A stretch of DNA of 64,000 bases from Pyrodictiaceae archaeon (GCA_027036135.1 JALVSY010000007.1:624880-688879), one strand, 5' to 3'; shown: positions 20,273 through 39,389, numbered from the stretch's first letter. Notes: generated by a model not told the origin, from the letters alone. A program made the numbers and translations.

Positions 20273-20893
20273 CTAAGACTTAGCCCCGTACAGCTCGCTT
20301 ATAACCCTTAGGGCCTCATCCCTGGAAACTATACCCTCCTCCGCCGCGCCCAGCAATAGCTCCTTCAGAGTAGTTACTCGGAGCAACCTGGCGCCGAGAC
20401 CTGCCAGTCTCTCCCCTGCCCCCTGCTCGCGATCAACAACTACTAGCGCATAGCAAGGCCTCGCACCAATCCCTCGGAGAGCCTCCACAGCCCTAGCCAA
20501 GCTACCACCAGTAGTAGCGACATCATCCACTACCAGGGTGCAGCCACGTATATCGCCCTCAACTAGGCGCCCAGTACCATGACCCTTTCTCTCCGGCCTA
20601 ACATAGCCCAGCGGGAGCCCAAGCAGGTACGCAACACCAGTAGCCCACGGAACACCACCAGTAGCGACACCCACAACCGCCTCGGCATCACCCGCCTCCG
20701 TGACAGCGACACTGGCTAGCAGCGACAAGATGGTGCGGAACACCTTTGGGTAACTAGGCACGATGCGTAGATCAACATAGACTGGGCTACGAGCACCACT
20801 ACTAAGCACAAACTCCCCGAAGCGAAGAGCACCAATACCCGACAAGAGCCTCGCGAGCAAACGAGCACCGCGCCCAATGCTCTCCCTACTCAT
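20273..20893 (-). CDS. pyrE: Orotate phosphoribosyltransferase
   Basis: Forms OMP from orotate and PRPP. 206 residues with the PRPP loop [14 protein letters not shown] (about residues 119-132) and the KGHGTGR flexible loop. First gene of the pyr operon, preceded by AGGAGG 12 bases upstream and a TATA box about 60 bases upstream. Codons about 20-59 (20717-20837) occur again as an exact 121-base copy at 22199-22319. This copy is intact and complete. Confidence 0.95.
20717..20837 (-). repeat. Source copy of the 121-bp pyrE direct repeat
   Basis: Every base from 20717 to 20837 is repeated in the same orientation at 22199-22319; identity stops abruptly at both ends. In this copy the sequence encodes residues about 20-59 of PyrE. 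Confidence 0.95.
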
Positions 20894-20996: not shown

Positions 20997-22123
20997 CTAG
21001 ATAGGTTGTTGCCCCGGGGACTGGCTCCTGCAAGGCGATATCTCCTTAGCAGCTTCTATAACTGCTTCTATGCCTAGGCCTAAGAGGGACTCTGCGTGTC
21101 TCCTGCTAGCCTCCTCTATTACTGCGCGGTAGAGGGGTAGCTGCGGCCTATACTCTATGCCGTCTCCTCGTAGAACGGGGTATGCTATGTTATGCTCTAC
21201 TAGCTTTTCTCCTAGCTCGGCTAGGATAGGGTCTCTTAGGGGCTGCACGGGCTCGGTTAGGGTTCTCCGGGCCAGCTCTATTACCTCGTTGCGGCCTAGT
21301 CCAAGACTCCTGGCTATTCTAGCTAATGCCTGCTCAAGCTCTGCTACGAGGCCCGCTATGTACCTCTGCTTTAGAGCAGGGTCGCCTAGGTAGCTACAAG
21401 CCTCCGGTACATAGCCGGGAGCAGGTACCAATCACCGCTACTAGCTCCGCCCTATCTAGGTCGCGACAGCCAGGGTTCTTCTCAGCATACTCGTCTAGGA
21501 GAACCATGTAGTGGCTGCAATCGAGTCCCTCGAGGAGCATGTATGCTGCTCCATAGCCACGTAGCCGGCTAATAGCCCTACTCGTGGCAAAGAACCCCTC
21601 ACTAATAGTTAGCACTACGCGTATTCCCCTAATCTCTCCCTTAACCAGCATAGCCGACAAGGACTCTAGGTCTCTCAGGGCCTCAGAGGCCTCTCGGTAA
21701 CCAGGTAACAAGTGGAACTCGTCAAGCACGAGATAGAGTACGCCTCCGCTGAGAGACCTAGCAACCGAGGCAACAGCCTCTCGCAATGCCTCAACTAGTC
21801 TAAGCAGGGCCCCGAGACCAGGCTCGGTCTCCATAAAAATGCTTGCAAGTCTCGCATCAATGCCCCGGCCCAGAGCTCTCTCAGCAACACTGCTAACAAG
21901 TACGTGCTGCTCCCTAGCATAGATATAAAGGCTCGATACCCCCTTCTTGCTGATCCAGTACCGGGTGAGCTCGCTCTTACCGACACCCCGGGCCCCATAG
22001 ACTATGACTGTGCTGAAGCGCGAAGCAAGCTTATCCAGTTCACCAAGCTCTCTTACCCGGTCATAGAACGCTACTCCCAGGCTGGTACGGTACTCGCGGT
22101 CAACATAGAGGCTCAGACGTCAT
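20997..22123 (-). pseudogene. Frameshifted archaeal-type ATPase
   Basis: Two frames together make one archaeal ATPase (ATPase_2 family) of about 370 residues. The first part has Walker A (YGARGVGKSEL, near 21990) and Walker B (LVLDEFHLLPG) and runs to 21394. The C-terminal winged-helix-like part is in another frame (20997-21431). The shift is near 21425, where IGT and PGYVPEACSYLGD should join. The 5' end also lacks an in-frame ATG, GTG or TTG; an ATG at 22123 is one base out of frame. Two lesions suggest a dying gene, though sequencing error cannot be excluded. These ATPases are often gained and lost in archaeal genomes. Confidence 0.75.
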
Positions 22124-22198: not shown

Positions 22199-22319
22199 TA
22201 GCAGCGACAAGATGGTGCGGAACACCTTTGGGTAACTAGGCACGATGCGTAGATCAACATAGACTGGGCTACGAGCACCACTACTAAGCACAAACTCCCC
22301 GAAGCGAAGAGCACCAATA
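22199..22319 (-). repeat. Ectopic exact 121-bp copy of a pyrE fragment
   Basis: Identical over 121 bases to 20717-20837 and in the same orientation, but with no relation in the flanks. It lies upstream of the broken ATPase, in non-coding sequence. A read-through frame across it (22100-22375) translates the PyrE piece but has unrelated ends, so it is not a gene. Perfect identity implies a recent event or ongoing gene conversion. Confidence 0.95.
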
Positions 22320-22403
22320 TTGATAGAAGCTTGCAGGTATACGTGAAGCGGGCCCTGGATTCTCTGAATCAACAACCTATTATATTAAGGACGAGTTAGA
22401 CTT

Positions 22404-22538
22404 ATGAGAGGGCATCTATATGTTTATGTGGTATCTATAGTGTTCCTTAGCAATATTATCTTGATATTATTTACTGGTAAATTAATGATAGAACTTAATT
22501 ATTCAATTAATAAAAAATATTTATTTTTTAATTATTAA
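22404..22538 (+). CDS. Possible 44-residue single-helix membrane peptide
   Basis: ATG-started frame at the left edge of the AT-rich island. Residues 5-24 form a plausible membrane helix (YVYVVSIVFLSNIILILF), followed by a Lys/Tyr/Asn-rich tail. It runs into the convergent TusA-like gene by 18 bases. AT-rich DNA readily produces hydrophobic codons, so this may be chance. Confidence 0.25.
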   Translation: MRGHLYVYVVSIVFLSNIILILFTGKLMIELNYSINKKYLFFNY

Positions 22539-22751
22539 TATTACTTTCCCATTTTCCTCTCTTATTGCTATCTCTCCTACATTCAGCGTCTTTAACTCGT
22601 TTGCAGCCTCTTCTAACTCCTTCTTATCGTTATGTATTACCATCAGCTCCTTAAGATCTGGGTTGCTCTCTATCTCGTCTAGAATATAGACAAGGATATC
22701 CCCACATAATCCGCTCGTTTTTGTGAAATCAAGTACTTTTTTCTCGTTCAT
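22521..22751 (-). CDS. TusA/SirA-like sulfur-carrier protein
   Basis: 76 residues with the beta-alpha-beta-alpha-beta-beta order of TusA (VLDFTKTSG, then helix, LKELMVIHND, helix, EIAIREENGKVILIIKK). TusA proteins carry persulfide on the Cys of a GLxCPxP motif. Here the matching site reads GLCGDI: one Cys, shifted by one position, and both prolines lost. Sulfur transfer is therefore probable but not certain. A TTTAAA-type TATA box about 25 bases upstream predicts a leaderless message starting at the ATG 22751. It is divergent from the HdrD-like gene and shares its AT-rich composition. Confidence 0.55.
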   Translation of the reverse strand: MNEKKVLDFTKTSGLCGDILVYILDEIESNPDLKELMVIHNDKKELEEAANELKTLNVGEIAIREENGKVILIIKK

Positions 22752-22767
22752 CACGTTTTCGCCTAGT

Positions 22768-22860
22768 ATTTTAAATTTTTCACGAAGAGGTAGATAATTC
22801 TTCTTTCATTTAATATCGTTACTATTTTGTATGTTTAATTTAAGGTTAAATAATATATTA
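22768..22860. promoter_or_regulatory. Divergent promoter region of the redox island
   Basis: Very AT-rich sequence between the TusA-like and HdrD-like genes. A TTTAAA element at 22768-22780 suits the minus-strand gene, and a TAAATAATATATTAAGG element at 22844-22862 suits the plus-strand gene with start near 22885. Confidence 0.45.
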
Positions 22861-22901
22861 AGGTTTTTCTGCCAGGTCTGGTTTCAATCCATAAACTGGG
22901 C

Positions 22902-24122
22902 TTGATAAGTACTATGATTACGCGCATCGAAATACAGCGTGAAAAACTAAGAAACACTATAGACATTATGCTAAGGAATGCATTAAGAGCCTTTTTTAGT
23001 GTCTGTATGAATTGTGGTTTTTGCAACAATGTGTGCCCAGTATATAGAGCCACTAAAAACCCTAAGTATACGCCGCTTAGGAGAGTAATAACAGCTAAGA
23101 AGCTTCTCGAGGGGCAGATAGATAAGGAGGCTGCCTCCGATGTCTTATTCTCCTGTCTTCTATGTGGGGCTTGTAGCTCTGCATGTCCTTTCGGCCTCGA
23201 TATTTATAGAATCATATATTTGGCGCGATGTAAACTCGCTCTCGAGGGTTATGGTCCTAGTAATTTTGCCAAGATGGCCGAGGGAGCCGCTAAGACATTG
23301 CATAGTTTCGGTGTACCAGTTGAACAAGCTCTCCGGGAAATAAGGAGCGACGAGCTAGAGGGGTTTATTGATAGAAAGGACTGCGATGTACTATACGTAC
23401 CGAGTCCCGTTGAGACCGCTTTTATGCCGCGTCATGTATATGAGACGGCTAGTATATTGAAGCTGCTTGGAATAAATTGGACCATATCACGGAGAGTAAT
23501 TGATTGTGGGGGAAACATCGGTGTTGATGCATCGAGACCAGATGTTGGGCTCAAGATACTGCTTAACCTTTTGAATGTAGCTGAGGAGCTAGGCGTTGAT
23601 AAAGTTGCCCTAGGTGCTTGTGGCGCAGATTATAAGTGGATTTCACTGTCCCGTGAGATTATAGATGAGCTTGGTATAGATACTCCTCGCATAACCTTTA
23701 CGAGCATTTATGAACTGATAGCTAAGCGATTAAAAACTAATAAATTACTGAAGAAGAAAGATGAAGTCGTTCTTCATGATCCTTGCAGCATGACGCGGTA
23801 CATCAGAGTCGATAGAAGCTATAAATCAATAATACCCTATGCTAAGAAGCCGAGGTTCTCGGGAGCTTGTACTCTTTGTTGCGGTGGTGGAGGAGGGTTA
23901 TCGCTTCGTAAGGACTCATTCGCTCGTAATCTGCTTCTAAGCATCGCATCTAAGAGGGTTGAGCAACTAGGATCAGTGAGCAGTAACATAGTTACTCCTT
24001 GTATAAAATGTTATATTTCTTTCAGAACCGCTGTGCTTCGTAAAAGGCTTGTTTCAAAGATTAGAATAGAAGGTCTCTCAAGCTATATTGTTAAGAAACT
24101 AAAGGAGGAGGATACTTATTGA
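22902..24122 (+). CDS. HdrD/DsrK/GlcF-like iron-sulfur protein
   Basis: 406 residues. Two ferredoxin-type [4Fe-4S] motifs lie near residues 35-46 (CMNCGFCNNVCP) and 84-95 (CLLCGACSSACP). Two CCG-type domains follow. The second is complete (HDPCSMTRY, then CTLCCGGGGG, then CIKC) and should bind the non-cubane cluster that handles disulfides in Hdr. The first is degenerate (IDCGGNIG, GACGAD). That pattern fits DsrK/HdrD subunits acting on a thiol/disulfide partner; GlcF-like use is an alternative. Starts at TTG 22902 or ATG 22914. Overlaps the thioredoxin-like gene by four bases. Confidence 0.82.
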   Translation: MISTMITRIEIQREKLRNTIDIMLRNALRAFFSVCMNCGFCNNVCPVYRATKNPKYTPLRRVITAKKLLEGQIDKEAASDVLFSCLLCGACSSACPFGLDIYRIIYLARCKLALEGYGPSNFAKMAEGAAKTLHSFGVPVEQALREIRSDELEGFIDRKDCDVLYVPSPVETAFMPRHVYETASILKLLGINWTISRRVIDCGGNIGVDASRPDVGLKILLNLLNVAEELGVDKVALGACGADYKWISLSREIIDELGIDTPRITFTSIYELIAKRLKTNKLLKKKDEVVLHDPCSMTRYIRVDRSYKSIIPYAKKPRFSGACTLCCGGGGGLSLRKDSFARNLLLSIASKRVEQLGSVSSNIVTPCIKCYISFRTAVLRKRLVSKIRIEGLSSYIVKKLKEEDTY

Positions 24123-24637
24123 AGCAGGAGGAAGAGAAAGAAATAAAGGAACTCATTGAGAAAATCTATAAAAAGATGCTAAAAGAGGGCATAGACGCCC
24201 GAGACAAAAAGAGGTTCAAGAAACGCATCGGGACAACCGATGAGCACGGCATATACGTGTATAGACCCGAGAAGGGCTGGCAGCTTCTCCGCATAGAAGG
24301 CGAAGCCTTTAGGCTAGGCGAACTAGGCAACGGCGTCTACGTATTGTATTTCGACAACACTAAGTGCCCTGCTTGCAGGATACATGATATAGCATGGTAC
24401 CCGTTTGTAGAGAAACACGAAAGAGAAGCCCACTTTGTAGTAATCCTCTGTGAGTGGTTTTCACGACATTGCCGCTCCAGCGCAGCAGCAAAGTCATTTA
24501 TAAGCTATCGTATCAGAGCATCACCTACAACAATATTCGCCTACGTAGAGGAGAACATCATTGTCAAGCAAGTGAAGAGGGAAGGAGCACTTACTGTATC
24601 TGAGCTTGAAGCTCTACTTGAATCCATGAAGAAGTAA
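24119..24637 (+). CDS. Thioredoxin-like protein with a CPAC motif
   Basis: 172 residues from a TTG start overlapping the HdrD-like stop. A charged helical N-terminal extension of about 80 residues precedes a thioredoxin fold with VLYFDNTKCPACRIHD (CPAC near residue 95) and the cis-proline loop RASPTTIFAYVEE. Two more Cys lie in LCEWFSRHC. No signal peptide, so it is cytoplasmic. In this operon it is the natural soluble disulfide partner of the HdrD-like subunit, which is inference from position. Confidence 0.75.
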   Translation: MKQEEEKEIKELIEKIYKKMLKEGIDARDKKRFKKRIGTTDEHGIYVYRPEKGWQLLRIEGEAFRLGELGNGVYVLYFDNTKCPACRIHDIAWYPFVEKHEREAHFVVILCEWFSRHCRSSAAAKSFISYRIRASPTTIFAYVEENIIVKQVKREGALTVSELEALLESMKK

Positions 24638-24651
24638 TCCTGGGTGAGCCT

Positions 24652-25305
24652 ATGTACGTATCTCTTAGCTTTGTGCGACTAATAATGTTTATTTTGGGAA
24701 CCATTGCCGTCATAGTCAATACAATACGTTACATATATAGATACAAAGCATGCGGAATCAAAGGAAAAGCTCAATTGTCATATACATTTAGACGCGTAAT
24801 TGAATCTATTATTCACAATTCCTTATATGAGGAAAACAAGCTGTATCTCTATATATTGATAGCGTTCCACGTAGCAGTAATTAGTCTTGCTTTATCGCAT
24901 ATAGGTCTCTATATAAGGTCTCTACACGAGACAGCTATACAATCAGTAACGTCATCTGCTCCTGAAAAATACGTCGAGCTTAGCTTATCAATAGCTATGG
25001 GTGGCTTAGGGCTCCTACTCCTTGCATTAAGACTAAGGAGGATACAAAAAGGAATAGCGTTAAACAACATACAGGTCATTGTATTGCATCTAATTGTGCA
25101 GGCTATAGCGTGGACATGGGCTGCCTATTATATGACATACAACTCTATAGCTCTATGGATGGCTATTCTAGCTATAGAGGTGTTTCACGTGTATATGTTC
25201 ACGTGGGCAGGGTTCCATGGAGTAATGTACATCTTGAGACTCTACTATTCTGCTAAGACATTACGGCAGCCACAAGTAATAGAGCTCGGCAACGAGATAA
25301 GGTAG
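24652..25305 (+). CDS. Cytochrome-b-like membrane subunit (HdrE/DsrM/NarI type, putative)
   Basis: 217 residues with about five membrane helices (near 5-25, 70-93, 110-131, 140-162 and 168-190). Histidines sit where haem ligands are expected: FHVAVISLALSH in the second helix, VLHLIVQAIAW in the fourth, and VFHVYMFTWAGFHG in the fifth. This resembles small b-type cytochromes that couple HdrD or DsrK to the quinone pool. It starts 14 bases after the thioredoxin-like gene. Homology is inferred from architecture and neighbours, not from a strong motif. Confidence 0.6.
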   Translation: MYVSLSFVRLIMFILGTIAVIVNTIRYIYRYKACGIKGKAQLSYTFRRVIESIIHNSLYEENKLYLYILIAFHVAVISLALSHIGLYIRSLHETAIQSVTSSAPEKYVELSLSIAMGGLGLLLLALRLRRIQKGIALNNIQVIVLHLIVQAIAWTWAAYYMTYNSIALWMAILAIEVFHVYMFTWAGFHGVMYILRLYYSAKTLRQPQVIELGNEIR

Positions 25306-25350
25306 TTTAACATTTATTGCAGATATCTTTTACCCTCTTACCTTATTCAT

Positions 25351-26094
25351 TTAGATTGCACAGAAAAGCCCTATCAACGCTATTGAGGCCTCTACTAGCA
25401 GGGTGCCTAGTCCCGAGAACGGTATCATCAAGGGAACTAGGGGGTTGTCTGAGCCAAGCCCGTAGAGGAGCACCGGGTCTATCATCCCTATGAGGCCTAT
25501 TACCAGGCCCATTACTAGCAGGTCCGCCTTATCCGCCCTAGAGCCCAGGAGGACGCTATAGGTAGCCATGTATGGATATGCTAGCAGGAGCACTACTAAG
25601 CCGAGGATCGTTAGCAGTATCCCGGCTAGGGCCATTTGGCCTCCCCGTGTCCTTATCTCCACGCTGCCCCGTGGCCCACTACCAGCCAGTTCCTCGAGCC
25701 CGTCGAGAAGCTTTGCGGTGCCGAAGCCGAGCAAGAATTTGTCCCCATTAATAGTCTCTACAAGTAGGAGATCCCGGAGCTTATCCGCGTAGACCCTTAC
25801 CGAGCCAATCTCCCTAAACCTGTAGTCGCCGGTTCGTAGCCCGGGCAATGTTATGCCGACGAGCCTGAAGCCTTTGCCAGGATCCTCTATCCTCTTCACG
25901 GACTTTATGGAGCCAATGGGTATTCTTAGCTCGCCACACCACCCAAACGATACAACTAGGTAGCCATCGGGGCTCAACGAGACCCCTGGCCTGCATGGGC
26001 CGCGAACAGCATAGAATACGGCAAAGAGGCCGATAGCTAGGCTAAGCAGCCCCGCTACGAAGAGCCCGGAGAAGAGCCAGCAAAGCAGCGGCAT
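25351..26094 (-). CDS. Membrane protein with a bacterial PH-like domain
   Basis: 247 residues. Two N-terminal helices and four C-terminal ones flank a soluble beta-rich region of about 110 residues. That region contains GITLPGLRTGDYRFREIGSVRVYA and LLLVETINGDKFLLGF, which resemble the bPH_5-type domain common in archaeal membrane proteins of unknown role. No catalytic residues. Divergent from the DGC-domain gene. GC content returns to the window's norm here, marking the right edge of the AT-rich island. Confidence 0.65.
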   Translation of the reverse strand: MPLLCWLFSGLFVAGLLSLAIGLFAVFYAVRGPCRPGVSLSPDGYLVVSFGWCGELRIPIGSIKSVKRIEDPGKGFRLVGITLPGLRTGDYRFREIGSVRVYADKLRDLLLVETINGDKFLLGFGTAKLLDGLEELAGSGPRGSVEIRTRGGQMALAGILLTILGLVVLLLAYPYMATYSVLLGSRADKADLLVMGLVIGLIGMIDPVLLYGLGSDNPLVPLMIPFSGLGTLLVEASIALIGLFCAI

Positions 26095-26251
26095 GGCTGC
26101 ATATTTCCTCGCAGAGTGTTACAGAGCCCTCTATACAGGTGGGCCGCTGTCCACGGGTAGCTGTTTGCACGCTTTTTATGTTCTTGGCTGCTCTGTTCCC
26201 GGTACAAGGTTATTGCTGCTCCGTACCCATCTATTAACCGGTTGGTCAGCC

Positions 26252-26701
26252 ATGGCCTCGGGGAAGAAGTACACACTCCTCCCAAGCTGCAGCAAGTACG
26301 CACCCAACCTCATAATAGTAGCAGCATGCGACGGCGCATCAAGCACCGGCCAAATAGGCAACGAGGTAGCAAGAATACTGACAAAGCGCTACCCCCGCCT
26401 CGTACGAATGTGCTGCCTAGCAGCAGTAGCAGCAGGGTCACAACTACACATCAAGATATTCAGGGACGCCCGTGCAGTCATAGCGATAAACGGCTGCCCA
26501 CTCCAATGCGCCTCAAAAGTACTAAGAAGCAGGGGAATAGAGCCTACATACGAGGTAACCATAACCGAGCTAGGTGTGCCAAAAGCCTCTACACTAGACT
26601 TCGACGAGGAAACAGCCCACGCTATAGCGGAGCGAATAGCAGAAGAATTCATAGAGAAGTTTAACGAGAACAACCAAGAGCCTCAGAGCGGTAACCAATA
26701 A
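26252..26701 (+). CDS. DGC-domain putative zinc-binding protein
   Basis: 149 residues. Conserved blocks: CDGASSTGQIGNEVARIL, RMCCLAAVAAG, and AINGCPLQCASKVL, which give the cysteines of the DGC family. These proteins are predicted to bind zinc or another metal; the biochemical role is not known. The frame is open 159 bases further upstream, but the ATG at 26252 (MASGKKYTLLPSC) matches the family start, and a TTTTTATG element at about 26173 gives a promoter just upstream. Confidence 0.75.
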   Translation: MASGKKYTLLPSCSKYAPNLIIVAACDGASSTGQIGNEVARILTKRYPRLVRMCCLAAVAAGSQLHIKIFRDARAVIAINGCPLQCASKVLRSRGIEPTYEVTITELGVPKASTLDFDEETAHAIAERIAEEFIEKFNENNQEPQSGNQ

Positions 26702-30757: not shown

Positions 30758-32185
30758 TTAGGGTGCTGGTGTGTATGCGTATAGTGGTATTCCGTAGAGC
30801 TTCCATGGCTGTATTGCTAGGGCTATTGTTATGAGCACGGCTATTAGTGCTGCGTAGACTCGGTAATCGTTCTTTATTGTTGGTGTTTCCTCTGTTGGTG
30901 GCTGTACTAGCTGGTAGAGCATGTAGCCGTAGTAGTAGGCTGCTATGGCGAAGTTTAGGAGCATTAGGAATGCTAGCCAGGCGCTAGCAGAGGTCGCTGC
31001 TATTAGGAGGTATAGCTTGCTCCAGAACCCTAGGGTGAATGGGAGCCCCATTAGATTCATGAGGGCTATCGCTAGGGCTGCTGCCGCTACTGGGCTCCGG
31101 TGCGCTAGTCCCCGTAGCCTGTTCCAAGTGCATGGCCCGTCTTCGCATGTCGCGTCTAGTACTTGGAAGCCTGCGAGCTTTGAGAATGCGTAGGTTGTGG
31201 TGTGGAGCGCTATACCTGCTAGTGCTGCCTCGCGGTTTATGCCTGCTAGCGCCGCTAGGGTAGCGAATCCTACTACTATGTAGCCTGCCTGCGCGACGCT
31301 GCTATAGGCTAGTGTTTTCTGGGGCGAGTCCCTAACTGCTAGTATTCCTCCGAGGTTGCCATAGAACATTGTTAGTAGTGCTAGTATCGCTGCTATCCAG
31401 AACAATGAGGCGGGTGCTCTTAGGGCGAAGGGTGTTATGAGCTTGACTATTAGTAGTGCTGCTACTAGCTTTGCCAGCGCCGAGGCAGCTGCTACTGTTA
31501 TTGGCCTAGAGTTGCCGTAGACGTCTATCGCCCATGCGTGGAACGGTACTACTCCCATCTTGAACCCTACAGCTATGATTATGAGGGCCACTACTGGCAC
31601 CGTGTACAATGGATCTGTCTGTACTAGGCCGCTGGTCATGTAGACGTTTCCGTGAACTATGTAGTAGAGTATTATGCCGAAGAGCAACAGTATTGTCGCT
31701 ACTGAGCCCGTTGTGCCATACTTCATCGCTGTCTCGGCAGAGATGCCGTTCTTCCGGAGAGCTATGAGTATGTAGGCGGCCACAGCAGCCATTATCCAGG
31801 CCACGTATGCTAGGTATACGACGCGCGCAAACCCTATCGATATCAGGCCAAGCACTATTAGGGCTAGGATTGCGTAGAACGCGTCACCTGCATCCCATTC
31901 CTCTGTAACGCTGTGGGCCCCGAGACCAGCTAGTAGGAACACCATTACAGACACTATTACCAAGAACAAGGAATACTTGTCATAGACCGCTGAGCCCTTC
32001 AGCACTGTGACGTAGGGGACAGGGCCCATCTCATAACCTATGTAGAGTAGTGTGAAGAGGACTAGTAGCGACGAGGCATAGAACGATGCCTTGACAGCTT
32101 TCTTGCCCATTAGCGGCGCGACTAGTGCTGTGAACCCATAGGCTATCGTCGCGATTATTAGCCCCGAGACGTATACCGAGACCAT
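30758..32185 (-). CDS. nuoN: Complex I antiporter-like subunit NuoN
   Basis: 475 residues with about 14 membrane helices, one of three Mrp-antiporter-type pumping subunits. The central block VPFHAWAIDVYGNSRPITVA and the following Lys (ALAKLVAALL) belong to the proton channel. Last gene of the nuoD-N run, ending in convergent non-coding DNA. Shorter N-terminus than in bacteria, as usual in archaea. Confidence 0.9.
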   Translation of the reverse strand: MVSVYVSGLIIATIAYGFTALVAPLMGKKAVKASFYASSLLVLFTLLYIGYEMGPVPYVTVLKGSAVYDKYSLFLVIVSVMVFLLAGLGAHSVTEEWDAGDAFYAILALIVLGLISIGFARVVYLAYVAWIMAAVAAYILIALRKNGISAETAMKYGTTGSVATILLLFGIILYYIVHGNVYMTSGLVQTDPLYTVPVVALIIIAVGFKMGVVPFHAWAIDVYGNSRPITVAAASALAKLVAALLIVKLITPFALRAPASLFWIAAILALLTMFYGNLGGILAVRDSPQKTLAYSSVAQAGYIVVGFATLAALAGINREAALAGIALHTTTYAFSKLAGFQVLDATCEDGPCTWNRLRGLAHRSPVAAAALAIALMNLMGLPFTLGFWSKLYLLIAATSASAWLAFLMLLNFAIAAYYYGYMLYQLVQPPTEETPTIKNDYRVYAALIAVLITIALAIQPWKLYGIPLYAYTPAP

Positions 32186-32219
32186 GCCTTCTCACCTTCT
32201 TCCTAGCTCCCTCCCTAGC

Positions 32220-34175
32220 TCACCCCGTGAACAGTATGACGAAGGCGGAGATTAGGGCGGCGAGGAGTATACCCATAAAGAAGTAAGCCATGTACATTTG
32301 TAGGTCTCCGCTCTGCAGCTCCCTCACCTTCTTGCTCACTGAGACGTTGGCACCGGGTATCGCGACGTGTATTAGCTCGTCGTAGCCCTTCTCAACGCTG
32401 TCTCTTAGCCAGCGAGATAGCCATGCACCAGGATACACTATTAGTCTATAGATTATTGAGTTCACGTACCAGCGGTCGTAGAGGAAGTTATAGAGAGCCC
32501 TCAGCAACGCGCTTCTCTCAACCCACTCTATTGGACGGATACCCATGAAGTATATCGCAACGGTTGAGGCGCCTAGTATCGCTGCCAGTGTGCCGGGCAG
32601 CATATCCATGACTGAGAGGTGTAGCTCTGGGGCTCCAACAGCAGCTGCTATGTGAGGCTCTATCCATGGCCATACGAGGCCGAGACCTAGCGCTGTTAGG
32701 CCTAGTGCTAGGTAGGGGCCTAGCATCAATGGATGTGCCTCGTGGAGGTGCTCGTGCTTCTTCCTCATAGGGGCGTGGAACACATAGTATATCATCCTCA
32801 TCGTGTAGGCGCCGGTGAGAACAGCTGTTATCAATGCGCCTATTGCTAGCCACTCGCTGTACTCCCACATAGCGTGAACTGTTAGATCTTTGCTCCACCA
32901 TCCTGAGAATGGCGGTATCGCTGCTAGGCTTAGGCCAGCCAGTATCGTCGCGACATAGGTCCAGGGCATGTACTTCTTTAGCTCGCCCATATCGTCTATG
33001 AACCTGCTGTGCACAGCGTGTATTATCGCGCCAGCAGCGAGGAAGAGCGTTGCCTTGAACACTGCGTGTGATATGAGGTGGGCGAAGCCCCCGAGGTCTC
33101 CCAGGGCTGCCTCGTTAACAGCTGCCCCAGCGAATATCGCGCCGAGCATGTAGGATAGCTGGCTCGCGGTCGAGTATGCTAGTATTAGCTTTAGCTCCCT
33201 CGATACAATCGCCATCGTGGCAGTGGCGAACGCGGTTAGCAGTGCTAGCCATGCCAGCGCCTTAAGCATCGCCGCACCGGTGCCGAAGGGAGCGAAGACA
33301 CCGAGAGCTATTATCGGAGCAAAGCGGAGAGCATAGAACACGCCAGCCTTGACCATCGTGGCTGCGTGTATTAGCGCTGACACCGATGTCGGGCCAGTCA
33401 TCGCTGTGACGAGCCATTCATAGAACGGGAACTGCGCGCTCTTAGCAAGGGCTCCTAGGAAGAATAGGAGTATCCAGTAAGCCGCTATTCCTCTCAGTGT
33501 TAGCTCGGCGAAGAACTCGTAGATATGGTTGTGTAGCACAGTTATGCTGGTGGAGCCTAGTACTGCGTAGACGACGCCGAAGCCTATTAGCATGCCGACG
33601 TCGCCGAGGCGTGTAAACACTATAGCTCTTAGCCCGCTGTGGCTCGGCGTGAACCACATCGGGACCTTCCAGGCCTTCCTGCCAGGGTCGCCTACCCAGA
33701 ACTCCTCGCGGTCATCGTAGTAGAAGCTTATCAGTGCCCAGCTCGAGAGACCAGTGCCCTCCCAGCCAACGAACATCGTGACCATGTCGCCGGCGTAGAC
33801 CAGTAGTAGCATGCTCGCTACGAAGAAGGTGTAGAAGAACCAGTACCGGGGCGCGCCCCACTCTCCTATGTACTCCACGCTGTAGATGCCTATCATTAGG
33901 CTAAGCGTCGCCACTACCACGCCCATTATCAATGAGAGCTTATCAGCCATTATCGAGAAGTGAACCCCTAGGCTCTTCACCCACGTATAGCTGAGCACCG
34001 ACTCGCCACTAGCCAGGGCTATCCACGCGAACAGCGTTGAGAGCGTTAGCCCCGCCACGCTGGTCCAGGCAATGATCTTCCACCTAGCCTCTGCTGCACC
34101 GAGTAACAGGGCTATTACTGAGAACGTGTACCCTGTTAGTACGCTCGCAAGCGCCCAGGAAGCGCCGTCCATCAA
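32220..34175 (-). CDS. nuoL: Complex I antiporter-like subunit NuoL
   Basis: 651 residues. The antiporter core has FVGWEGTGLSSWALI (channel Glu), QFPFYEWLVTAMTGPTSVSA and a following MVKAG lysine. The C-terminal part (after about residue 490) supplies the long lateral helix and the last membrane helix (YFFMGILLAALISAFVILF). Four bases separate it from nuoM. In this order NuoL lies between M and N. Confidence 0.93.
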   Translation of the reverse strand: MMDGASWALASVLTGYTFSVIALLLGAAEARWKIIAWTSVAGLTLSTLFAWIALASGESVLSYTWVKSLGVHFSIMADKLSLIMGVVVATLSLMIGIYSVEYIGEWGAPRYWFFYTFFVASMLLLVYAGDMVTMFVGWEGTGLSSWALISFYYDDREEFWVGDPGRKAWKVPMWFTPSHSGLRAIVFTRLGDVGMLIGFGVVYAVLGSTSITVLHNHIYEFFAELTLRGIAAYWILLFFLGALAKSAQFPFYEWLVTAMTGPTSVSALIHAATMVKAGVFYALRFAPIIALGVFAPFGTGAAMLKALAWLALLTAFATATMAIVSRELKLILAYSTASQLSYMLGAIFAGAAVNEAALGDLGGFAHLISHAVFKATLFLAAGAIIHAVHSRFIDDMGELKKYMPWTYVATILAGLSLAAIPPFSGWWSKDLTVHAMWEYSEWLAIGALITAVLTGAYTMRMIYYVFHAPMRKKHEHLHEAHPLMLGPYLALGLTALGLGLVWPWIEPHIAAAVGAPELHLSVMDMLPGTLAAILGASTVAIYFMGIRPIEWVERSALLRALYNFLYDRWYVNSIIYRLIVYPGAWLSRWLRDSVEKGYDELIHVAIPGANVSVSKKVRELQSGDLQMYMAYFFMGILLAALISAFVILFTG

Positions 34176-34179
34176 GCCA

Positions 34180-35688
34180 TCACCTCAGGGCATAGACGGT
34201 TTTCATGTTCTGTGCAACCGGGTCAGCAAACCAACCAATAACTATGAAGAAAACAATCGCTAGCACGAGGAGCACGAGGAGAGAGGCGATCAAGCTCCGT
34301 GCGGGCTTCTCCGAGGCCTCCTCGTAGACTGGGCCGCCGGGGCCGTAGAAGACGCGCTTAAACGTAGTAAAGCTATATATCACTGTGAGCGTCATAGAGG
34401 CTATGACTAGTATTGTTAGTGCTACAAAGCTCCAAAGCCCGTAGCCCATAGCCCACTTAGAGAAGCCGAATACTAGGTATATCTCGCTCCACATACCCAT
34501 TGTCGGCGGCAGTCCAGATATCAGCATGAAGCCTACCAGGGCTAGTGCGCCAGTATACGGCATTTTGCGTAGCAGGCCACCCATGTTCTCTAGGTCCCTC
34601 GTCCCGAGGGCGACTATGAAGATGCCAGCGACGCCGAAGAGGAGTGCCTTGCCAAGCGCGTGGGTAAGGTAGTGGAGTATAGCTCCTGTCTCCGCCTCGG
34701 CGTTGGCGATGGATAGGCCTAGCATTAGGTAGCCCATCTGCGATATACTGCTATAGGCGAAGAGTCGCTTAATATCACGCTGCGATAATACTAGGAAGCC
34801 ACCGTAGAGCATAGTTACTATAGCCCATAGGAATAGCCAGGGAGTCGCCTCTGACCAGAGGGAGCCGAAGTACCCTATACCTGCCCTTAGAAGCACGTAT
34901 CCACCTATACCGATGAGTAGCGGGGATAGCAGCGCCGATATCGGTGTCGGGGCCTCGGCGTGCGCGTATGGAAGCCATAGGTGCAGCCCACCCATGGCCA
35001 TCTTCACGCTAGCGCCTATGAGCACTAAGAGGAATGCTGCTAAGCTATGGCTCACGTCAGTGACGTAGCCTGCCCCAGGCACGTAGAAGTCGAAGCGCCC
35101 AACAACGAACATGCCGATGATGAATAGCACTGCGCCTACATGGGTCCAGATAAGATAGATTAGGCCTACTTTAAAGCGGTCACCGTAGCCGTAGAGGACT
35201 ATTAGGAGGGCGCTGGGTATCAGTGTTAGCTCCAAGAAGAGGTAGAACAGTATAGCGTTGCTAGCCAGTACGGCGCCCAACATACCGGCAGTGAAGAGCT
35301 GGTATAGGAAGTAGTAGGTGGAGAAGCTCCCGGAGCCCATCTCGTGGAACCGATGCTCCATGTAGGGAGCGGAGTAGAGCGCTATGATGAAACTCACCAC
35401 TGCGATGCTCATAGCCATGAGCGCGCTAATAGAATCCATGAACAAGCCCAGTGTACCGAAGCTACTCGTCCTAGCATACCAGGGGTCAACAGCTACAACG
35501 TTGTCGCGGAAAACCTTAGCCAGCACAGGGGCTAGTAGCGCTAGCGTGACTGCCCAGGAACCAGCAGCTATCCCGGCATGTGTAGCCTTGGAAGCCCTAC
35601 GGGCAGAGGCGTTGATGAACCCAGCGATTATTGGTATGAGTACAGAGGCCCAGAGAATAGGGTATCCCAGCACGTACTCCGTGGGCAT
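34180..35688 (-). CDS. nuoM: Complex I antiporter-like subunit NuoM
   Basis: 502 residues, about 14 helices. Channel residues are in FLELTLIPSALLIVLYGYG (Glu) and GGLHLWLPYAHAEAPTPIS followed by an intramembrane block. Standard length. Six bases downstream of nuoK. Confidence 0.93.
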   Translation of the reverse strand: MPTEYVLGYPILWASVLIPIIAGFINASARRASKATHAGIAAGSWAVTLALLAPVLAKVFRDNVVAVDPWYARTSSFGTLGLFMDSISALMAMSIAVVSFIIALYSAPYMEHRFHEMGSGSFSTYYFLYQLFTAGMLGAVLASNAILFYLFLELTLIPSALLIVLYGYGDRFKVGLIYLIWTHVGAVLFIIGMFVVGRFDFYVPGAGYVTDVSHSLAAFLLVLIGASVKMAMGGLHLWLPYAHAEAPTPISALLSPLLIGIGGYVLLRAGIGYFGSLWSEATPWLFLWAIVTMLYGGFLVLSQRDIKRLFAYSSISQMGYLMLGLSIANAEAETGAILHYLTHALGKALLFGVAGIFIVALGTRDLENMGGLLRKMPYTGALALVGFMLISGLPPTMGMWSEIYLVFGFSKWAMGYGLWSFVALTILVIASMTLTVIYSFTTFKRVFYGPGGPVYEEASEKPARSLIASLLVLLVLAIVFFIVIGWFADPVAQNMKTVYALR

Positions 35689-35694
35689 GGGTCG

Positions 35695-36036
35695 TCACCC
35701 CTTTGCCTCGCGCAAATCCTTCACGGCCAGGGTTCTCCTAGTGCGGTAAATGAGCACGACTATAGCCAGGAGAATAGCCATCTCGGCTATAGTGAGTATT
35801 ATGACGGTTAGTAAGACGGAGTAGAAACCAGCCTTGGAGCCCGAGGAGGCGACAACCCCGATGTAGGCGGCAGTGAGCACTACGACGTTGAACAAGACCT
35901 CTATCGAGACGAGGAGCCTTAGGAGGCTCTGCGCCGTGAGTATTCCATAAATAGCAGCTGAGCCAGCGATAACAGTAGCGGTGTAAACTAGTGCAGCCAG
36001 TAGCTCACCATTCAAGACTCGACTCCTCTCCTCCAA
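35695..36036 (-). CDS. nuoK: Complex I subunit NuoK
   Basis: 113 residues, three membrane helices. The two conserved membrane glutamates are present (LLVSIEVLFN and TIAEMAILLAI), which link the quinone site to the antiporter subunits. A 75-base gap separates it from nuoJ upstream. Confidence 0.92.
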   Translation of the reverse strand: MEERSRVLNGELLAALVYTATVIAGSAAIYGILTAQSLLRLLVSIEVLFNVVVLTAAYIGVVASSGSKAGFYSVLLTVIILTIAEMAILLAIVVLIYRTRRTLAVKDLREAKG

Positions 36037-36111
36037 TCTGTTAAAGAAGCAATTATACGTAAGTTTAAAGAGATAACCCTTTGCATAACGGCAAAAAACT
36101 GGGCACGTGAA

Positions 36112-36621
36112 TCACCCCGTTTGGCTCCTCCTAGCAACGCTGATGGCTTCTACTAGTACAGCAGCGATAGTTATCATCATCAGTATGGTGCAGAACCAGC
36201 ATCCTGTGAAGAATCCAGCTGCATCCGCTAAGCTATACTTCGTCTGGGCCAACTGAGCGCTTGTAATCGGGTGGCGTACAGCATAGACCGCTAGCGGCGC
36301 CTCAAGGGTGGCAGCAGCAACCACCGATAATAGTGCCAAGTCTCTCCGATGCCTAGGCTCCTCGTAGAGATCACCAACCATCATTACTACGAAGGCTAGT
36401 AGCGCTATAGTGGTGCCAGCATAGACTATTACATAGAAGGCTGCGAGGTAGGCATATCCCATTAATCCCATCATTGCAGCTGTAGCGAGGGCAACCATAA
36501 GCAACATGAACACAGCCTTCATCGTACGCCTAGCAACAGCAGTGCCAACGGCGGCAGCAGCTAATACGGCTAAGGAGCCGATTATAGCTGTGTCTAGGGT
36601 AACGCTACTCCACAGGCTCAT
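36112..36621 (-). CDS. nuoJ: Complex I subunit NuoJ
   Basis: About 169 residues with five helices, including the Gly/Tyr-rich third helix (YLAAFYVIVYAGTTIALLAF) that holds the pi-bulge region. The frame is open to 36648; the ATG at 36621 (MSLWSSVTLDT) reduces the overlap with nuoI to 17 bases and better fits the family. Confidence 0.88.
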   Translation of the reverse strand: MSLWSSVTLDTAIIGSLAVLAAAAVGTAVARRTMKAVFMLLMVALATAAMMGLMGYAYLAAFYVIVYAGTTIALLAFVVMMVGDLYEEPRHRRDLALLSVVAAATLEAPLAVYAVRHPITSAQLAQTKYSLADAAGFFTGCWFCTILMMITIAAVLVEAISVARRSQTG

Positions 36622-37117
36622 AGCGGAGACCCACCTCCTCGTCAACACGCGTTATAACGAGCTTGCGCTTCCTCTTTGCGTGCTCTTCTACGAGCTTCTT
36701 CGAAATAATGTGCCACTCAACCGGGTCAAAGTCCATGCTCCCTATTTGCTCAAAGACCTCGTCGTGCACAGGGCTCACATCAAGCGCGTCGGTTGGACAG
36801 ATGTCTGTGCAGAGGCCGCAGTGAATACAGCGACCAGCGTCATAGCCCGGCCTTATCCTCTTATCTCCTGGTACACGGTACATGTGGATAGCTCTTGGCG
36901 GGCATATCTGGGCACAGAGGCTACAACCAATGCACTTATTGTAGTTGAATATTATGAAGCCTCTGAAGTACTCTGGCTTCTTCTCCTCCATATCTGGGTA
37001 CATCAGAGTCATAGGCTTCCTTGTGAGCCACTTGATGCCAGTAGCTATGGCCTCTAGGTGTGCCAGTACCGGGTTAATACTCGGACGATGATTATCTCGC
37101 TCCTCCTTATTTGTCAT
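36605..37117 (-). CDS. nuoI: Complex I iron-sulfur subunit NuoI
   Basis: 170 residues carrying clusters N6a and N6b in two 4Fe-4S motifs: CIGCSLCAQICP and CIHCGLCTDICP. N- and C-terminal extensions are charged. It passes electrons to NuoB. No NuoE, F or G are present, so the electron donor is not NADH through the usual flavin arm; ferredoxin or another donor is likely (family knowledge). Confidence 0.94.
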   Translation of the reverse strand: MTNKEERDNHRPSINPVLAHLEAIATGIKWLTRKPMTLMYPDMEEKKPEYFRGFIIFNYNKCIGCSLCAQICPPRAIHMYRVPGDKRIRPGYDAGRCIHCGLCTDICPTDALDVSPVHDEVFEQIGSMDFDPVEWHIISKKLVEEHAKRKRKLVITRVDEEVGLRYEPVE

Positions 37118-37133
37118 AAATGTACCACCTTAC

Positions 37134-38159
37134 CTAAGCATAGATTACATGGACAAAAACACCGAGAGCTAGGGCAACGAAGCCTAGTGGAAAGAGCCTT
37201 GCCCAGAAGAAATTCATTGCTTGATCAAGCTTCATCCTGCCGTACACGGCGCGCAGGAACACCGAGAATAGCATCACTATCAGCGACTTAATATAGACAG
37301 ATATTGCCCCCAGTAATGGTGTTGTAAAAGGTGCCCATCCCCCGAGGAAGAGCAGTGTAAAAGCCAAGCTCAGAGCATAGAGCTTCACGTAGTCGATGGC
37401 CATTGTTAGGGCGTAGAGTACTCCGCTGTACTCGGTATAGGGGCCCTGCACAATCTCTTGTTCTCCAAGGACTATGTCGAAGGGCACTCTATCAGTGAGT
37501 AATAGCATTGCTAAGAAGAATAATAGAGCGGCGATAGGGTTGGAGACCAGCCCTATTATCCCGGTATGCATCTGTTTCTCAACAGCAGTAACGAAGTCAA
37601 GCGTGCCATACATAGCAGCCACAGAGAGCATAGCAAGGGCCAGTGTTATCTCGCCAGAGACTGTTAGGAGGGCTTCGCGCCCACCACCTATCATTGCGAA
37701 CTTGTTGCTTGAAGCCCAGCCCATCAGTATAACCGTTATGGGTGAGAGAGTAAGCAACGCGTACACGATGACCATGCTGAAGTCGCTGCGGAACCCATAG
37801 ATTCCCGGCCCGCCTGGGAGCACGGTGAAGGGCAGTGTTAGGAACGTAAAGGTCAGTATCGGGCCGAGTATAAACATTAGCCTATCGGTCTCTATGTGCA
37901 CTATTATCTCTTGTAGCGCGAAGCGAGCACCATCAGCTATGAGTTGCAATGCGCCGTGTAGCTTGGGAGAAACATAGTAGGGGCCTACGCGTTGCTGAAC
38001 CCTTGCAGCCATTTTTCTCTCGGCCCATATGAGGAATAGCACTGTGCCTAGAAGCACCGCCAATCCGGGATAAACCAGGGGGGCTAGGAATCCTCGTAGG
38101 GCCCAGACGGGTACGTGGAGGATCTTTGCAAGCTCAACCAATACCATGACTGGGGTCAC
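37134..38159 (-). CDS. nuoH: Complex I membrane subunit NuoH
   Basis: 341 residues, about eight helices. The quinone-chamber motifs are intact: AERKMAARVQQRVGP, the ETDR loop, and DRVPFDIVLGEQEIVQGPY. Overall length is family standard. Starts 21 bases after nuoD. Confidence 0.95.
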   Translation of the reverse strand: MTPVMVLVELAKILHVPVWALRGFLAPLVYPGLAVLLGTVLFLIWAERKMAARVQQRVGPYYVSPKLHGALQLIADGARFALQEIIVHIETDRLMFILGPILTFTFLTLPFTVLPGGPGIYGFRSDFSMVIVYALLTLSPITVILMGWASSNKFAMIGGGREALLTVSGEITLALAMLSVAAMYGTLDFVTAVEKQMHTGIIGLVSNPIAALLFFLAMLLLTDRVPFDIVLGEQEIVQGPYTEYSGVLYALTMAIDYVKLYALSLAFTLLFLGGWAPFTTPLLGAISVYIKSLIVMLFSVFLRAVYGRMKLDQAMNFFWARLFPLGFVALALGVFVHVIYA

Positions 38160-38180
38160 CCCTTTGCGTCTTGGACGAGG

Positions 38181-39389
38181 CTATCTATCCGCTTCGGGTG
38201 GGAAGTAGTCCATGCTACCATAGATAGCGGGTAGATCCATCAAGGTGTTGCCTGGCGGGAGTATCGAGAACATTATGGCGTTCCTGGCGCTCGGCGTGAC
38301 TATCCTCAACCGGTACGGCATCATGCCGCCATCGCTGACGAGGTAATAGGTTACCTCGCCGTGCCCCATCTCGCCACGGGAGAAGATCTCGCCCTTGCGG
38401 GGTCTTAGCCTAACGTAGCCCCCGGGTAGCTTCACTCTACCCTTCTCAAACCACTTCTTCATAGCAGGGGGCACCATCTTGGCATAGCGTTCATGGAATA
38501 TCGGGCCATCGGGGAGCTGCTTAAGAGCCTGCTCTATGAGGTCTAGGCTCATCTCTATCTCGCGTAGCCTTACCCACACCCTCTCCAAGCCGTCACCGTA
38601 CTTACCAACCACTGGCTCGAAGTCAAGCTCGCTATAGGCAGCGTAGCCTAGGAGCCTTGCATCGTATCTCACGCCGCTCGCTCTCAGATTGGGCCCGGTT
38701 ATGCCATAGGCTATTGCCTTGTCCTTGGGGAGCACGCCGACGTTCTCGAGACGGCCTCGTATAACGGGGTTGTTGAAGAACATCTTGTCATAGTCCTTGA
38801 GCTTCCTGAGCATATACCTCTTAGCCTTAAGGAACTCGTCCTTGAAGCCCTGTGGTAGGTCTCTACGAACCCCTCCGAAGATGTTATAGGTATGTGTCAG
38901 CCTCGCACCGGTTAGCAACGATGCTAGGTGGACGAAGACCTCGCGGTCACCGAAGCCCCACATGAACATTGTTGAGTGGTTGAGGAATATGCCGCCGATG
39001 CCTAGGCCATAGAGATGGCTCGAGATACGGTTGATCTCACAGAGTATTGTTCTCAGATACTTTGCCCTCGGGGGGGCCTCTATGCCGAGCAGCTTCTCAA
39101 CAGCCTCGACGAAGGGGAGCGTAATGTTACAAGAATCAATAATCGTCATTCTCTCTATGAGGCTTATGACGCGTACATACTCCCTTATCTCGGAGAGCTT
39201 CTCCATGGTTCGGTGAACATAGCCTATATCGGGATCGACACGGACAATAATATCGCCGTCAAGGTAAACAACGAGCCTCATGTGACCAGAGGCAGGGTGC
39301 TGCGGGCCAATGTAGAGCTCAACTACTCGATAACCATCGCGCTGGCCAAGCTCCCTACCAATCATGCCAGGCAACTCGATTCTAGGCAT
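38181..39389 (-). CDS. nuoD: Complex I 49-kDa-type subunit NuoD
   Basis: 402 residues. Quinone-site His in GPQHPASGH and the conserved ending GSMDYFPPEADR. The NiFe-binding CxxC pairs of related hydrogenases are absent (ERMTIIDSCNITLP replaces the CGIC block), so this is a quinone-reducing complex I and not a group 4 hydrogenase. ATG start preceded by AAGGTGA. First gene of the D-H-I-J-K-M-L-N run; its divergent neighbour is nuoC. Confidence 0.95.
   Translation of the reverse strand: MPRIELPGMIGRELGQRDGYRVVELYIGPQHPASGHMRLVVYLDGDIIVRVDPDIGYVHRTMEKLSEIREYVRVISLIERMTIIDSCNITLPFVEAVEKLLGIEAPPRAKYLRTILCEINRISSHLYGLGIGGIFLNHSTMFMWGFGDREVFVHLASLLTGARLTHTYNIFGGVRRDLPQGFKDEFLKAKRYMLRKLKDYDKMFFNNPVIRGRLENVGVLPKDKAIAYGITGPNLRASGVRYDARLLGYAAYSELDFEPVVGKYGDGLERVWVRLREIEMSLDLIEQALKQLPDGPIFHERYAKMVPPAMKKWFEKGRVKLPGGYVRLRPRKGEIFSRGEMGHGEVTYYLVSDGGMMPYRLRIVTPSARNAIMFSILPPGNTLMDLPAIYGSMDYFPPEADR

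Follow-up and report, generated by a model that had tools for sequence, protein, structure and literature searches.

Which sulfur compound does an HdrD/DsrK-type iron-sulfur (Fe-S) protein act on in an archaeon whose genome yields no DsrC? CCG proteins of this type are found everywhere in anaerobes, and the sulfur substrate is unknown for most lineages. The question is raised by a 64,000-nucleotide (nt) stretch from a Pyrodictiaceae archaeon (G000:C7:624880-688879; this whole stretch is called the window), which belongs to a genome of 2.2 Mb and 99.6% completeness. A first-pass annotation had described in it an AT-rich island, in which a TusA-like gene diverges from a tight run of three genes encoding an HdrD/DsrK-like Fe-S protein, a CPAC thioredoxin-like protein and a His-containing five-helix membrane protein, and the open reading frame (ORF) coordinates agreed with this layout. 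By analogy with known systems, we propose with moderate confidence that the island encodes a horizontally acquired, minimal quinone:protein-thiol oxidoreductase of the DsrMK/HdrDE type, with the TusA-like protein as its partner and quinol-driven reduction as its most likely activity. The constant presence of a small single-cysteine partner makes the substrate of one such lineage a concrete, testable guess.

Conserved components of the module

Pfam detected two 4Fe-4S motifs and one CCG domain in the Fe-S protein. The former correspond to two CxxCxxCxxxC clusters (C35-C45 and C85-C95); the first CCG is degenerate (GGN...CGAD), with C240 as its sole conserved cysteine, and the second is complete (C295, C326-C327, C367-C370). 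Both clusters and the complete second CCG were invariant in an alignment of nine relatives. The protein thus possesses the two [4Fe-4S] motifs and single complete CCG that characterize DsrK, and lacks the two complete CCG domains of HdrD. It nevertheless scored only 91.1 bits against the DsrK model NF045796, which has a 400-bit cut-off, and its NCBIfam scores were spread across HmcF, DsrK, TmcB, GlcF and TfrB, all far under cut-off. In a maximum-likelihood tree, ten sequences (G000, G005, G006, G007, G008, G011, G014, G018, G052 and G106, mostly Pyrodictiaceae) formed one clade with 100/100 support, apart from both DsrK and the hydrogenase protein Isp2. A class-wide search of 229 genomes returned these ten members and, in family f7, two distant orphans; the orphans aside, no member occurred there outside Pyrodictiaceae (f1), f5 and f6. 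No further members were found in a 398-genome phylum sample at E 1e-45. When contigs were scanned, a single-protein query gave no match and a profile query gave four metagenome-assembled genome loci, all of them already-known carriers.

The association of the Fe-S protein with its neighbors was then compared across genomes. The TusA-like gene lay on the divergent side of the HdrD-like gene in all eight loci with enough contig (G000, G005, G006, G007, G008, G011, G014 and G106), and a membrane-protein gene was present in all nine loci with context, namely these eight (a partial ORF in G008) and G052. The loci span at least five genera and three families, and their gene order is reshuffled. The TusA-like gene diverges from HdrD-thioredoxin-membrane in the window; G052 has HdrD-membrane; and the HdrD-like gene diverges from membrane-TusA in G006, from TusA-membrane in G007 and G008, and from PDO-like-TusA-membrane in G005, G011, G014 and G106, followed in the first three by a CPHC thioredoxin and a CcdA-like permease. 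The co-occurrence of four genes that the first-pass annotation had anticipated therefore holds for the Fe-S, TusA-like and membrane proteins and fails for the CPAC thioredoxin, which is joined to this clade solely in the window.

The window thioredoxin carries, besides CPAC, a cis-Pro-type SPT motif, has the sequence features of a thioredoxin, and matched tryparedoxins in phmmer (E 6e-4). Its relatives were found in 37 of 57 other genomes, and the nine contexts read were scattered and without the module, which marks it as a local recruit; as a conserved redox partner it was rejected because the family is widespread and unlinked. The PDO-like protein of other loci has two invariant cysteines, one of them in GLPC, and a VP cis-Pro-type motif; a Pfam thioredoxin match was obtained for the G106 sequence only (Thioredoxin_3, E 3e-5, just under cut-off).

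DsrC (PF04358) was detected in none of the ten carrier genomes and in all three comparison genomes with DsrK or DsrK-like proteins, which were picked from the DsrK search and of which two exceeded the DsrK cut-off. Three carriers are 76-82% complete and the other seven 94% or more, so the absence is firmer in the latter. Because its association is constant, the TusA-like protein is more likely than the thioredoxin to take the role of DsrC or the heterodisulfide. The initial proposal that it and the thioredoxin together replace CoM-S-S-CoB or DsrC thus keeps its TusA-like half, in line with the absence of DsrC, and loses the thioredoxin, which is not conserved.

Profile comparison aligned the TusA-like protein with CPxP TusA of the order over nearly its full length (hhalign E 6e-7, prob 92%). 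Its AlphaFold2 (AF2) model, with a predicted local distance difference test score (pLDDT) of 86.5, has the beta-alpha-beta-alpha-beta-beta order of TusA, and Foldseek against the PDB placed SirA-like 3hz7 at rank 1 and Escherichia coli TusA 3lvj at rank 5, with template modeling (TM) scores of 0.70-0.75 and a probability of 1.00, the E-values being merely 0.02-0.05. The cysteine C17, within CGD, was invariant in all 11 aligned rows. The protein scored under the PF01206 cut-off, and the window's own genome contained neither a PF01206 match at E 1e-3 nor a CPxP TusA. We therefore class it as TusA-like, not as TusA: it has the fold, but not the CPxP motif or a score above the family cut-off. When the TusA-like and membrane-protein profiles were run against PDB sequences, nothing useful came up; the best TusA-like match, a short one to a tau construct, was taken as chance. 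Further small TusA-like proteins, with CGG or CGA at the CPxP position, make up a broader family (L064 8689-8961, L065, L066, L067 and L068). Their genes lie in other contexts, for example beside metallo-beta-lactamase-fold-like proteins in L064 and L066.

The membrane protein has five hydrophobic segments, with H73-x9-H83 on helix 2 and H179-x9-H189 on helix 5. The helix-2 pair occurred in nine of nine full-length relatives and in a tenth, partial ORF (G008); its chance product was 1e-8 when each sequence was shuffled and related sequences were treated as independent. A second pair on the last helix, spaced 17-19, was found in seven of the nine module membrane proteins. In alignment, the His-containing five-helix protein recognized at first pass thus retains candidate haem ligands. 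DsrM-like proteins beside DsrK or DsrK-like genes show the same H-x9-H and mostly H-x17-H on the last helix. The module protein resembles DsrM in pattern, without proven homology, and is probably a di-haem b, quinone-reactive subunit.

An inserted island and its empty site

The guanine-plus-cytosine (GC) content of the island is 40.1% versus 53.3% for the window, making it the lowest-GC 3 kb there. Third-position GC (GC3) was 38-41% in three island genes and 51% in the thioredoxin gene, compared with 53-65% in four flanking genes. In G001, of the same genus, both flanks match at 92-93% nucleotide identity and lie nearly side by side, without some 3.1 kb of the window; BLAST left window positions 22,210-25,378 unmatched, and about 16 bases occupy the site. 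The AT-richness described at first pass thus coincides with an empty site in a relative, and on this sequence evidence the island is foreign, horizontally acquired DNA. The tree also agrees with horizontal transfer: instead of joining its own family, the window Fe-S protein paired (89/53) with that of G052, which belongs to a different family and whose contig is AT-rich too (33% GC).

Table 1. Features of the island in window coordinates (aa, amino acids)
Feature	Position	Strand	Remarks
AT-rich inserted island	22199..25342		GC 40%; absent in same-genus G001; right edge approximate, ~25330-25350
121-nt exact duplicate of internal resident pyrE segment (20717-20837)	22199..22319		Left junction of insertion; from repeat search and empty-site alignment
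TusA-like protein, 77 aa	22521..22754	-	C17 in LDxT...CGD replaces CPxP
Divergent intergenic region, AT-rich, 147 bp	22755..22901		From sequence
DsrK/HdrD-like Fe-S protein, 406 aa	22902..24122	+	
CPAC thioredoxin-like protein, soluble, 172 aa	24119..24637	+	Widespread crenarchaeal family
Five-helix membrane protein, 217 aa	24652..25305	+	Candidate di-haem b, quinone-reactive subunit, DsrM/NarI-like

The HdrD-like and thioredoxin genes overlap by 4 nt, and the membrane-protein gene starts 15 nt past the thioredoxin stop. The 147 bp between the divergent TusA-like and HdrD-like genes probably hold the promoters of both transcription units. At the left junction, the inserted DNA meets the native flank via a near-homology of about 11 nt, TAGCAGCGACA in the window and AAGCAGGACA in G001. 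The pyrE copy looks like the templated filler DNA of an end-joining event, and its exactness suggests that the insertion was recent. The exact repeat also raised the possibility of an assembly artefact, which was judged unlikely, since native flanks run on both sides, the near-homology covers only about 11 nt, and a k-mer misjoin needs a long shared end. Within the island, no gene for an integrase was noticed. Adjoining the insertion, outside the island, an archaeal ATPase gene (20997-22073, minus strand) is broken into several frames, whereas the G001 gene is a single long open frame. Immediately to the right of the island, 26093-26701 encodes a cysteine-rich DGC-domain (PF08859) protein, which also occurs in G001 and is thus native.

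A proposed electron path and competing readings

In the reading we favor, the five-helix protein, probably carrying two haems b, would exchange electrons with the quinone pool and form a complex with the Fe-S protein, within which electrons would pass through two [4Fe-4S] clusters to the CCG site. This single complete site, predicted to hold a noncubane [4Fe-4S] cluster, would cleave or form a sulfur-sulfur bond. The dedicated partner would be the single-cysteine TusA-like protein, in the form of a persulfide or of a mixed di- or trisulfide with a thioredoxin-fold protein, which may be the CPAC thioredoxin in the window and, elsewhere, the PDO-like protein with GLPC. As the most probable net reaction, quinol carrying H2-derived electrons would reduce TusA-bound sulfane sulfur or disulfide and free thiol or sulfide. 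The reductive direction is preferred because better-known relatives are H2-dependent reducers; the sequence itself does not fix it. An apparent complex-I-like (Nuo/Fpo-type) gene run at 30758-39389, assigned by reading ORF starts, would feed the quinone pool, and this quinone link within the window was counted in favor of the proposal.

Several points weigh against this reading. With a dithiol partner, thermodynamics favor thiol oxidation by quinone; reduction calls for a persulfide or trisulfide of high potential. In the window and in G052 the paired His residues of helix 5 are 10 apart instead of 17-19, and haem geometry may differ. The profile link between the membrane protein and DsrM is weak (hhalign prob 21%), its AF2 model has low confidence (pLDDT 45), and the G052 contig ends beside HdrD with no TusA-like gene visible there.

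The best-placed alternative, though we think it unlikely, runs in the opposite direction: thiols or persulfides on the TusA-like and thioredoxin proteins would be oxidized and quinone reduced, for energy conservation or for oxidation of sulfur compounds as in the sHdr pathway. Electron flow from thiol to menaquinone is downhill, and TusA genes do lie beside Hdr-like genes in sulfur oxidizers, as with dsrE3A-dsrE2B-tusA of Metallosphaera cuprina (PMC4175335). However, DsrE, LbpA and sHdrA/B genes were not noticed at the loci read, no genome-wide search for them having been made, and related species live as H2-dependent reducers, with nitrate, thiosulfate or O2 serving as acceptor in P. fumarii (PMC3156397).

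The preferred quinol-driven path may extend, in Pyrodictium-type genomes, to a CcdA-like permease and an extracytoplasmic, membrane-anchored CPHC thioredoxin. Genes for the PDO-like, TusA-like, membrane, CPHC thioredoxin and CcdA-like proteins form a run in G005, G011, G014 and G016 (the G016 contig being cut before HdrD), and the G006 locus adjoins genes for a thioredoxin-CcdA-like fusion and for a membrane protein bearing CxxCH. The latter (L024 5854-7194) is a multi-helix protein of 446 aa, has its one CxxCH near the C terminus and gave no Pfam or NCBIfam match. The window's own genome has a native PDO-like/TusA-like/CPHC thioredoxin/CcdA-like cluster at C7 28.4-30.7 kb (L058 7439-9736), common to G002 and G004 (also L059 and L069). 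It lacks HdrD and the membrane protein, suggesting that the island supplies those two subunits. A bolder and decidedly tentative extension is that the carriers represent a DsrC-free DsrMK lineage, in which the single-Cys TusA-like and GLPC PDO-like proteins would constitute a protein "heterodisulfide" or trisulfide reduced by quinol, which would also drive the CcdA-like permease in Pyrodictium-type genomes. If true, this would be a third class of heterodisulfide-type respiration, beside those of CoM/CoB and DsrC, and would link the quinone pool to extracytoplasmic thiols.

The same gene runs, the G006 neighbors and the second, HdrD-free native cluster were also counted for a different purpose of the system, namely an outward feed of reductant from quinol through the HdrD-like, TusA-like/PDO-like and CcdA-like proteins to the anchored CPHC thioredoxin, serving for example cytochrome c maturation or surface disulfides. 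We consider this quite improbable: no CcdA-like match was found in G052, G106 or G018 (76% complete), the CcdA-like gene is unlinked in G007 and G008, the CcdA cluster occurs without HdrD in genus g1, and the CcdA-like protein itself has no CcdA/DsbD family match in Pfam or NCBIfam. In a last reading, the HdrD-like and membrane proteins would be a general-purpose electron-transfer pair of the kind known from GlcF, GlpC or hydrogenase Isp complexes, and the TusA-like protein a mere neighbor engaged in, say, tRNA thiolation or cofactor sulfur supply. The scattered NCBIfam scores and the TusA-like paralogue without HdrD in genus g1 would suit this, but it is very unlikely given the constant TusA-like association in reshuffled order at eight loci of at least five genera and the separate clade of Isp2; nor was a gene for a substrate dehydrogenase or a hydrogenase subunit noticed immediately beside the module at the loci read.

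Comparison with known systems

The components are of known kinds; what sets the module apart is the combination of a DsrMK-like core, no DsrC, a CGD-type TusA-like partner and an optional CcdA-like relay. A literature search, which lacked most subscription papers, found no description of this combination, and no work joining HdrD, TusA and CcdA, or Pyrodictiaceae, genome and heterodisulfide reductase. The proposed system would illustrate DsrMK-like function in the absence of DsrC and a possible route from the quinone pool to thiol relays in the hottest-growing archaea.

HdrDE of methanogens likewise combines a membrane cytochrome b with a CCG Fe-S protein acting on a sulfur-sulfur bond. The module, however, has only one complete CCG site, CoM-S-S-CoB is not its expected substrate, and its carriers are hyperthermophilic Thermoproteota. 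Isp1/Isp2 of membrane-bound [NiFe] hydrogenases are also an HdrD-like and cytochrome b-like pair, and occur elsewhere in the same genome family. Isp2 nonetheless forms its own clade, its first CCG is not reduced, and hydrogenase subunits adjoin it, whereas no hydrogenase large- or small-subunit-like ORF was noticed near the island among the window ORFs. The sHdr/TusA/DsrE system of Metallosphaera cuprina (PMC4175335) places TusA beside heterodisulfide-reductase-like genes in Thermoproteota, but comprises a soluble multi-subunit Hdr, DsrE, LbpA and a CPxP TusA, whereas the module would be membrane linked, with a single HdrD and a CGD TusA-like protein. Compared with the TusA/SirA sulfurtransferases, the latter has CGD instead of CPxP and lies under the PF01206 cut-off, but shares the fold, profile similarity and a cysteine just before helix 1. 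Also among the closest known relatives in kind is the DsrMK core of the DsrMKJOP complex of sulfate and sulfite reducers. The module differs from it in that the carriers lack DsrC, the partner is TusA-like, no DsrJOP gene was noticed at module loci, and the Fe-S protein belongs to a separate clade scoring 91 of 400 bits; it resembles it in the degenerate first CCG (GGN...ECG in DsrK), the catalytic second CCG, and the pairing of the Fe-S protein with a five-helix membrane protein bearing H-x9-H on helix 2.

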